Of a stretch of 64,000 bases of DNA, positions 37,679 to 48,686 are shown in pieces (within the stretch, counting starts at the first letter, position 1; each line of letters starts with the position of its first letter). Source of the DNA: Tessaracoccus caeni (lineage in GTDB: Bacteria > Actinomycetota > Actinomycetes > Propionibacteriales > Propionibacteriaceae). The stretch covers positions 1-64,000 of the forward strand of contig NZ_JARGDO010000017.1 in assembly GCF_029211185.1 (NCBI RefSeq). Direction: 5' to 3'. A model generated the notes under the pieces. The model saw nothing but the letters and a program-made list of their open reading frames with translations, made no database searches and was not told where the DNA came from. A program made the position numbers and the translations under genes.

Positions 37679-38059
37679 ATGTACACCCACGAACCCCGCC
37701 CCAGCGATCTCGTCAAGGACCAGCTCCCCGACGTCGACGCGCCCGCCCCGGTGCCCACCGAGGACGAGGTGCTCGAGGCGATGAAGGACGTCGTCGACCC
37801 CGAGCTGATGGTCAACGTCGTCGACCTCGGTCTGGTCTACGGCGTCAACGTCGACGAGGCCGGCAACGCCACCATCGACATGACGCTCACCTCGCCCACC
37901 TGCCCGCTCACCGACAAGATCGAGTACGACACCAAGTACGTGCTCGACGGTCTGGTCGAGTCGGTCGAGATCAACTGGGTCTGGCTGCCGCCGTGGACGC
38001 TGGAGATGATCACCGAGGACGGCCGCGAACAGCTCCGCGCCATCGGCTACAACCTCTGA
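37679..38059 (+). CDS. sufT: MIP18/DUF59 Fe-S maturation factor SufT
   Basis: 126-aa last gene of the suf operon. The DUF59 core DVVDPELMVNVVDLGLVYGV and TLTSPTCPLTDKIE with its conserved Cys are clear. In actinomycetes this protein assists transfer of clusters to target enzymes. The start is one base after the sufU stop. A tandem hairpin repeat begins at its TGA stop. Confidence 0.94.
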   Translation: MYTHEPRPSDLVKDQLPDVDAPAPVPTEDEVLEAMKDVVDPELMVNVVDLGLVYGVNVDEAGNATIDMTLTSPTCPLTDKIEYDTKYVLDGLVESVEINWVWLPPWTLEMITEDGREQLRAIGYNL

Positions 38060-38196
38060 CGCTCTTTGAGGTGCGAGGCCGTTCGCGGCCAAGCGTCGAC
38101 AATCGGGACGAGCGCGAAGCACCAATAACGCTCTTTGAGGTGCGAGGCCGTTCGCGGCCGAGCCTCGACAATCGGGACGAGTGCGAAGCACCAATG
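38059..38196 (+). repeat. Two tandem 69-bp units of hairpin repeat family (copy B)
   Basis: Units start at 38059 and 38128 with ACGCTCTTTGAGGTGCGAGG, contain a GGCCG/CGGCC-type hairpin, and end with a GCGAAGCACCAAT tail. They differ at only a few positions. The array begins at the last base of the sufT stop codon. Confidence 0.85.
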
Positions 38197-38281
38197 ACGC
38201 TCTTTGAGGTGCGGAGCGCAGCGGAGCCTCGAAAAGAGCCAGCGTGAGTTTCACTGGGGACTGTTACTCGGCTTTCCCATG
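38197..38281 (+). repeat. Hairpin repeat family, copy C with tail
   Basis: Third, shorter unit. Arms GCTCTTT / AAAGAGC at 38199-38239 are followed by a tail (GTGAGTTTCACTGGGGACTG ...) that is also found after copy E at 61.96 kb. Confidence 0.75.
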
Positions 38282-46494: not shown

Positions 46495-46608
46495 GCTCTC
46501 CTCGAGGCTCGGCCGCGAGCGGCCTCGCACCTCGAAGAGCGTCATCGGTGTTCGCGCCGACGTTGATGGTCGAGGCTCGTTCCTCGCACGTCGAAGGGCG
46601 TCGTGAGA
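46495..46608 (-). repeat. Hairpin repeat family, copy D (two units, inverted)
   Basis: On the minus strand two units, about 46547-46608 and 46495-46546, start GACGCCCTTCGACGTGCGAG and GACGCTCTTCGAGGTGCGAG. The first is joined to the second by a GCGAACACCGATG tail as in copy B. Arms GCTCT / AGAGC of the second unit pair. Confidence 0.7.
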
Positions 46609-46619
46609 GGCTCGCGGGC

Positions 46620-48686
46620 TCAGCGGATGATGCGGCCGACGGTCGACTCCCAGGGGCGCATCTTGGGGCCGGGTGTCGGGCCGAGGACGGTGTCGGTCTT
46701 GAGGCCGTGTCGCGGGCGGCGGCGTGGTTTGCCGGAGAGGTTGGCCTCGATCAGCCAGGCCTCGCCGGCATGTTCTCGCACATATCCCAGGTAGTCGCGA
46801 CGGTCGGGGTGGATGGCGCGGAAGTCGCCTCGGGCCAGCGCCGGATGGGCCCGACGCAGGGCGATCAGGCTGCGGTACCAGTGCCAGACGGAGTTCCGGT
46901 CGGCCTGTTGTTCGGTGGCGGTGAAGCCAGGGGCGTCGTCCTTGCCGGGCAGCCATGGCTCGCTGCCAAACCCGCCCTCGCTGTCGAAGCCGCCTTCGCG
47001 GCCGAAGCTTCCCTCGCCGCGGAACCCGCCCTTGCTGCCGAGGCCGCCTTCGCCGCCGAAGCCGCCCTCGGCGTCCCAGCGCATCGGCACGCGGGCATGG
47101 TCGCGGCTGCCTGCCAGGATCTCGGCCCAGGCATCTTCAGGCGTCGTTCCGTCGTCGAGTAGCTTCCGGTAGCGGTTGAGCGACTCGACGTCGCGGAGGT
47201 CGGTGATGCCGGCGAAGTCCTGGTTGACGGCCGCCAGCTCCTGGCCCTGGAACAGGAAGGGCGTGCCGCGCATGGTGAGCTGCAGCGTCGCGAGCAGCTT
47301 GGCGATGGCGGTGCGCGTCGTGGGGTCAAGTTCGGCGCCGTCGGCCACCTTGCTGAGCATGCGCGGGTTGTCGTGGTTGTCCAGGAACAGAGCGATCCCG
47401 TCGCCGGGGCGAAGCCGTTCCTGCCAACCCAGCCAGAAGCGCTTGAGGTAGTTGAGGTCGTAGGCGTACGCGTCCCACCGGATCTGCCCCGGCATGTCCA
47501 GCACGTCGAAGTTGAACACCAGATCCAGCTCGCCGCGCCCGGCGTTGCTGAGCAGGCGGGCGCCCTCGATGCCGATGCCCGGCGTCTCGCCCACCATCAC
47601 CGCGACGCTGCCATCGGGGCGGGTGAAGCCGTCGCGTCGCAGCTGGCGCAGGTACTCGTCGAGGTGCGGACCGTAGAAGTAGTGCTCGACCCCGGTGAAC
47701 TCCATCAGTTGTCCGACGAACGGGTTGCCGTCGGGCAGGCCTTCCGCCTTGGAGATGTAGTTGATCACGTCGAGCCGGAACCCGTCGACGCCCCGGTCGA
47801 GCCACCAGCGCACGACGTCGGCAACCTCGCCGCGCACTGCGGGGTTGGCCCAGTTGAGGTCCATTTGATGGTCGGCGAACAGGTGCAGCGCCCAGCGTTC
47901 GGCCTCGGGAATCCAGCGCCAGGCGGGCCCGGAGAAGAACGAGGTCCAGTTGTTGGGCGGCTCGCCGGGAGTTCCGTGCACAAGTCTGCGTATGTGCTCA
48001 GGCCTGGCCACTTCGGCCGCAGAACTCGCCGTATCCGCAGATTTGTGCACGTCATCGCGCGGTGGGCGCAGGAAGTAGTAGTCGCCATAAGGGCCGTCGG
48101 GGTCGGCGATCGCCTTCTGGAACCACTCGTGCTGGGCGGAGGTGTGGTTGACCACCAGATCAAGGATGATCCGCATGCCGCGCTCGTGGCAGCCGGCGAT
48201 CAGCTCGTCGGCGTCGGCCAGCGTGCCCATCTCGGTCATGATGTCGCGGTAGTCGCTGATGTCGTAGCCCATGTCCTGGTTGGGCGAGGCGAAGATGGGG
48301 GAGAGCCACAGGCAGTCGACGCCCAGCTCGGCCAGGTAGTCGAGGCGCGAGATGATGCCGCGAAGGTCGCCGACGCCGTCGCCGTCGGAGTCCTGGAACG
48401 AGCGCGGGTAGATCTGATAGAACACCGCGTCGCGCCACCAGGCGTCCTTGGGCTCCGTCCCCGGCACGTCGTCGTTATGCTGATCGACGAGGGCGAGCAG
48501 CGCGTCGACGAGGCCCGGACCGGTGAGCTTCTCCGTCAGGGCTTCCAGCCGCGATAGCCGCAACCGGCCCGCTGCCTTGATGGCGGACCTCGGCGCGCCG
48601 CTCTGCAACAGGAGCTTGTCGACGATGTCGCGCCCGAGCGGCGTGGCGTACAGGTCTCGGACTCGGGCGTTCTTGTCCAGCGTCAC
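46620..48686 (-). CDS. GH13 alpha-glucosidase with two in-frame insertions
   Basis: 688-aa oligo-1,6-glucosidase/alpha-glucosidase-type enzyme. Barrel motifs: DLVVNHTS (near 176), nucleophile Asp306 in GFRLDVINY, acid/base Glu367 in VGETPG, and NHDNPR near 437. Residues 1-75 are an unusual helical N-terminal extension. Residues 213-237 (VHKSADTAS ... RRLVH) are encoded by a 75-bp palindromic element that splits an otherwise ordinary [14 protein letters not shown] loop. Residues 540-575 are six Gly-rich hexapeptides (EGGFGG-like) inserted between RWDA and EPWLP. GTG 48686 overlaps the transporter stop by 4 bp. It hydrolyses alpha-glucosides imported by the adjoining GPH transporter; activity with both insertions is untested. 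Confidence 0.9.
46962..47069 (-). repeat. 18-bp minisatellite inside GH13
   Basis: Six tandem 18-bp units encode [30 protein letters not shown] and EGGFGS. The units have diverged at many third positions, so the array is not recent. Confidence 0.9.
47976..48050 (-). mobile_element. In-frame 75-bp palindromic element inside GH13
   Basis: Ends GTGCACAAGTCTGCG (47976-47990) and CGCAGATTTGTGCAC (48036-48050) are inverted repeats with one mismatch. The length is 25 codons, so the frame is kept, and removing it restores the expected [14 protein letters not shown] sequence. Confidence 0.75.

Follow-up and report, generated by a model that had tools for sequence, protein, structure and literature searches.

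The window (the whole stretch of 64,000 nucleotides that was analysed) contains a gene for a GH13 alpha-glucosidase that carries a palindrome in frame. The features are listed in Table 1. G000 denotes the genome of the window, P0001 the host GH13 protein, the other G numbers relatives and the L numbers individual loci. For the host gene we adopted the start at 48686, which is the best by codon use; the mechanical open reading frame reaches 48983. The Alpha-amylase catalytic domain (PF00128) spans most of its length in the host protein (1-398 of 446 in Pfam, E 4.5e-114, 382.5 bits), which places the protein in GH13. The frame is open from end to end with a GC3 of 0.90 outside the insert, and inspecting the translation by eye we found what we take to be the GH13 catalytic motifs. 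The loop with the insert presumably lies in domain B, a part of the fold that is rich in loops. There are 19 GH13 match rows in G000, where pieces of a single gene are counted separately. At the second expansion in the same gene the aligned relatives show about one unit or less of the 18-bp EGGFGS-like repeat. We also observed a 69-bp tandem unit with TTTGAGGTGCGAGGCCGTTCGCGGCC at 38059-38213 (2.2 copies) and a diverged piece of this unit at 46507-46536, directly downstream of the GH13 gene, so that this is perhaps another dispersed repeat. Positions 78-103 hold 26 C in an unbroken run.

Table 1. Features at the GH13 locus in window coordinates, with the basis of each assignment.
Feature	Position	Strand	Basis and remarks
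GH13 alpha-glucosidase / oligo-1,6-glucosidase-like host gene	46620..48686	-	uninterrupted frame; Pfam, PDB oligo-1,6-glucosidases
Further in-frame expansion of the host gene	46959..47070	-	18-bp unit, 6.2 copies, EGGFGS-like (TRF)
Copy of the palindrome (75 bp, 47976-48050, flanked by C and G)	47975..48051	.	arms, fold, models R1 and R2, frame
PPRD stretch, about 12 bp adjoining the element	48054..48065	-	absent from the relatives' loops (alignments); junction approximate

The inverted arms of the palindrome (47975-47993 and 48033-48051) have 19 nt each, are 89% complementary and enclose 39 nt. The fold reaches -40 kcal/mol (z -5.0) on the plus strand and -35 kcal/mol (z -3.8) on the minus strand, which is the coding strand, and for both strands it is better than all 200 dinucleotide shuffles. 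The 75 bp are codon-aligned on the minus strand within the GH13 reading frame and, judging by the open frame, would be translated into 25 residues (312-336 of P0001). The original prediction that a GH13 gene carries a 75-bp palindrome in frame is thus borne out in its arms, fold, codon alignment and residue count. The insert has a GC3 of 0.60. The remainder of the gene has 0.90, with no other 25-codon window below 0.72, and hence the insert has not adopted the codon use of its host gene.

For the comparison with relatives we used the best-matching GH13 protein, which is what we mean by orthologue, from 36 other genomes of the same genus (the search covered 38 other genomes of the genus, with G006 and G013 not read at the loop). 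The 25 residues are absent in 35 of the 36 relatives, and G008, the remaining one, is unreadable at the loop. The loop from YY to NNW (e.g. YYFLRDGDPETPPNNW) has 45 residues in the window compared to 12 to 18 in the 35 relatives. It is therefore about 29 residues longer, of which the palindrome accounts for 25, which leaves about four further extra residues next to it (PPRD). Taking the element out had been expected to restore the standard loop; this agrees with the 35 relatives without the insert, but for the PPRD residues the expectation falls short. We placed the loop by sequence alignment to solved chains: 1uok, a solved oligo-1,6-glucosidase, aligns on both sides and residues 311-336 of P0001 have no counterpart in it. 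The closest relative's GH13 gene shows only 73% identity over the aligned stretch, and the insertion event is therefore not dated.

The ends of the palindrome recur across the genome. We found 11 exact occurrences of GTGCACAARTCTGCG compared to none for the reversed control, and the end GTGCACAAATCTGCG gave 46 matches with up to 2 mismatches compared to a single one for the control. The covariance model R1, built from 23 other copies without the window copy, matches 28 places in G000, each on both strands, and scores the window copy with 50.9 bits (E 3.1e-10). A second model, R2, was built from 32 copies of eight genomes, again without the window copy, and scores it with 56.4 bits. The copy is accordingly not unique, which is the outcome on which the original prediction depended. 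The unit is about 75 bp long and nearly fully palindromic, its consensus (75 bp) starts with CGTGCACA, and both arms are best conserved over their outer ∼15 bp. Conservation is 1.37 bits at the base directly outside the 73-mer, 0.37 bits at the next one and at most 0.56 bits after that, up to 25 (in these counts by position the G000 copies L112, L114 and L115 are either truncated or not in register). This shows a sharp-ended, discrete unit of about 75 bp.

Within this family the window copy stands somewhat apart. It has one mismatch to the consensus in the outer 30 bases and 13 in the inner 36. As 16 of 23 other copies listed measure 73 bp between identical end letters, the coding copy is 2 nt longer, internally. 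The divergent interior and the two additional nucleotides suggest that the window copy may be older or a separate variant. The fold of its best strand is weaker than that of 23 of the 27 other copies. A weakened hairpin would make sense in a copy that is translated, though a single copy is no proof.

For the location of the copies we called genes with a codon-usage scorer and counted overlaps of up to 20 bp at gene ends as intergenic. The 128 placed copies come from ten genomes; the set contains no match of G061 or G106, and it lacks one match of G029 (L083). Only one copy, that of the window, lies inside a gene and one lies across the 3' end of a gene, with 117 intergenic copies and 9 undecided ones that lack a called neighbour on one side. 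The same scorer assigns 53,739 of the 64,000 bp of the window to coding sequence, and for one in-gene copy of 28 the binomial probability is 8e-21. The copy at the gene end (L001:1501-1573, corresponding to G000:C3:10911-10983) runs across the 3' end of CobK/CbiJ and gives the last 12 residues and the TAG stop; the CbiJ Pfam domain of this protein ends at residue 240 of 260, upstream of the palindrome. Among the intergenic copies of G000, 15 of 26 lie between divergent genes; among the 39 intergenic gaps of the window 8 are of this kind (Fisher p 0.003, post hoc). In G019 we observed 11 of 16 copies between convergent genes (p 0.0002 against the gaps of the window, a borrowed background). As the bias differs between genomes, we draw no function from it. 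Of 56 readings of the copies, 39 are open in the frame used in the GH13 gene (VHKSA...) and 41 in another frame, so openness is no special feature of the frame used.

The family extends to related species in altered form. The exact ends were absent in 59 relatives, and R1 found related palindromes in 7 other members of the genus, among the matches listed. R2 matched 12 of 198 Propionibacteriaceae genomes, 10 of them in the genus, again among the matches listed. Since 8 of these 12 genomes gave training copies, the independent ones are G030, G061, G066 and G106, some of them weak (G106: E 4e-4). Within the genus the number of copies ranges from no match to more than 30 per genome, where totals beyond G000 are lower bounds with 124 candidates scored per genome in the R1 search and 24 in the R2 search. 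Other species carry sequence-divergent sets of similar length, and across species the unit aligns over 75 columns with few gaps despite the change in sequence, a constancy that is partly selected as the copies were chosen with a 75-position model. In the GH13 tree a single clade of 17 rows holds 9 of the 10 genomes of the genus that carry the element. Presence of the element requires 7 changes on this tree compared to 8.9 in shuffles, and as 45 of 500 shuffles were as low, the clustering is weak. A strict pattern found one contig, of an uncultured Arachnia, in the genome contig collection; with a pattern this strict the result says nothing on absence elsewhere. Two exact patterns had no match in the viral contig collection, and Rfam gave no gathering match in four element-bearing loci.

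The close genomes G020 and G033, with main flank alignments of ∼85-94% identity, allow a comparison of individual positions. Four positions are common to both (L131/L139, L078/L148, L142/L149 and L146/L185). G020 carries two copies at L139, spaced 230 bp apart, and the second of them is missing in G033. The two G020 copies in this region share an identical run of 66 bases and their 40-base flanks agree at only 12/40 and 11/40 positions, which indicates a gain of the unit alone, with none of the surrounding sequence. An overlap of 13 bases between the flank alignments is what a target duplication would leave; the target sits in 18-bp tandem repeats, however, and the overlap is no proof. With some positions shared between close species and others not, the family behaves as a mobile repeat of small size and non-autonomous kind would. 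Local duplication without transposition explains part of the spread, as the presence/absence differences at L150 and L152 involve larger repeat blocks. In G011 some adjacent copies have common flanks. Palindromes within larger blocks with short repeats of the GGTTGAGCCGG or GGTTCCCTGAGCTCAACCGG type were observed at L093, L096, L100 and L101 of G011 and at L150 and L152 of G020/G033. As to the mover, Y1_Tnp (PF01797, RAYT) was found in none of the 39 genomes of the genus, with the control positive in 5 of 14 named genomes, and on these grounds we rejected a RAYT-driven REP. All 46 end matches with up to 2 mismatches lie inside the 28 palindromes, and no parent IS with the same ends was seen in the draft assembly of 82 contigs.

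We then compared the two arms of the copies with each other. For the 23 G000 copies the arm identity is 0.787 within and 0.775 between copies, and 685 of 5000 permutations were as high. A test on 16-bp arms was slightly positive (155/5000). In G011 the identity is 0.747 within compared to 0.789 between copies (32 of 33 copies; the remaining one differs in length and was left out). For 23 of the 28 G000 copies, 144 of the 500 letter shuffles matched the paired percentage and 23 the covariation score. The palindrome itself is 81.5% paired compared to 23 to 52% in slid versions. A preference of one strand for G-U over A-C mismatches appeared only in G011 (6/5000; G000: 3599/5000) and is confounded by related copies. 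The case for an RNA hairpin kept by compensatory change is weak, as shuffles often reach the observed pairing and the arms are barely more alike within copies. Together, the hardly raised likeness within copies and the weak covariation favour the recognition of each arm as DNA over a maintained RNA hairpin.

From these observations we conclude that the 75 bp are very probably a copy of a palindromic repeat that is dispersed and non-autonomous and belongs to an Arachnia-type Propionibacteriaceae lineage; this copy would have entered the GH13 gene in a single in-frame insertion. Our best reading is a new family of intergenic palindromic repeats with one tolerated in-frame insertion. An enzyme would move the repeat as a discrete unit, and one copy would have inserted in the loop of the GH13 enzyme. 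The protein would have survived with 25 extra residues, or 29 including the neighbours, because the reading contains no stop and the number of nucleotides gained is divisible by three. The length needs care here, as an insertion of 73 bp shifts the frame unless the end base pairs are included. On the time scale of the gene the insertion is probably recent, with which a possibly older window copy sits badly, and it appears to have been tolerated rather than selected. A wider version describes a previously undescribed class of mobile palindromes in Propionibacteriaceae, of fixed length (∼75 bp), tuned to each species and moved by a non-Y1 enzyme, which occasionally supply protein sequence, as in the GH13 loop and in the C-terminal tail and stop of CobK in one genome; we regard this as possible, but the balance is rather against it.

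Several other explanations have to be weighed against a mobile repeat. The palindromes might be immobile binding or structural sites, made of two inverted half-sites that are retained at gene ends and promoters and evolve together with a DNA-binding protein, with the in-gene copy as an incidental relic. The arm comparison fits this, with covariation barely above letter shuffles, and so do the near-constant length across species (partly selected by the model) with both arms changing together and the excess of divergent gaps in G000, a post hoc finding. The location bias is not common to the genomes, however, as the convergent copies of G019 illustrate; copy numbers from none to more than 30 in the genus, the near-identical neighbour at L139 and the differing presence between close species also speak against fixed sites. 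Three G000 copies (L018, L031 and L032) with 32 of 33 arm pairs in Watson-Crick form run counter to the recognition of each arm as DNA, as does the orthologous pair L146/L185 with its paired change in both arms. We consider immobile half-sites distinctly unlikely. Relaxed selection on a dispensable, decaying glucosidase is only slightly less unlikely: the gene has been expanded in frame twice, by the palindrome and by the 18-bp tandem repeat, and G000 has other GH13 matches, but a frame open throughout, the GC3 outside the insert, the strong Pfam match and the motifs that we take to be catalytic speak against decay.

The parallel to Rickettsia that had been proposed for this element holds as far as a dispersed palindromic family with an in-frame copy is concerned. 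It is not supported for a protein-coding family, in which insertion into reading frames is frequent and the peptide is exapted. The open VHKSA... frame could be read in this sense, as could the end of CobK (L001), which also comes from a copy, but another frame is open just as often and one in-gene and one end-overlapping copy among 128, with a window that is mostly coding, are far too few. By these counts the reading is close to refuted, and we consider it very improbable. A chance palindrome combined with an ordinary indel, or an assembly error, has next to no probability. The sequence does come from a single draft assembly of 82 contigs; against this, the site lies 48 kb inside a contig of 109.5 kb, the frame is kept and the window copy scores E 3e-10 with R1. 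Chance alone is ruled out by the recurring ends and by two models that were built without the window copy.

Rickettsia offers the best-known cases of small palindromes captured in frame, with isolated examples in other organisms, and here the capture concerns an enzyme of an actinomycete. One in-gene copy among 128 placed ones shows that such survival is rare. As the repeat family and relatives without the insert are at hand, the effect of the insert on the enzyme is directly testable. A near-constant length, a changing sequence and no known mover turn the search for the moving enzyme into a concrete question. A literature search over titles and the starts of abstracts returned no paper describing this palindrome family. 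In-frame fusions of such repeats are known in bacteria (PMC10969869, PMC3733652), among them fusions of intragenic MITE copies (PMC10969869). What is new is thus the repeat family; in-frame repeat capture in bacteria was already known, and the in-gene copy is unusual.

The family resembles MITEs such as ERIC, which are short non-autonomous units with terminal inverted repeats, and it shares with them its shortness, its terminal inverted repeats, its many copies and, at L139, presence/absence between close relatives. Further bacterial MITEs are RUP and Correia. It differs in that no parent IS with the same ends was seen in the draft assembly. Like GTAG/CGTC REPs, of which some copies lie inside ORFs, the units are palindromic and mainly intergenic, but they measure ∼75 bp compared to 20-40 bp for REPs (PMC3733652). 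The GTAG/CGTC foot is also lacking at the start of the consensus, judged by eye, and the RAYT domain Y1_Tnp was found in none of the 39 genus genomes. The palindromic elements of Rickettsia (RPEs) are likewise small and dispersed, and as there one copy lies in frame in the gene of a metabolic enzyme. According to the excerpted text of PMC10969869, however, RPEs measure ∼150 bp and nearly half of them lie in ORFs, compared to ∼75 bp and 1 of 128 here. Length and location thus set the elements apart from RPEs, and length, ends and the lack of a Y1 match set them apart from REP/RAYT. They also belong to another phylum, and their recurrent protein-coding use was not seen among our 128 copies. By analogy, then, the family would work like a MITE or a large REP, and its single in-frame copy would be comparable to an RPE insertion.
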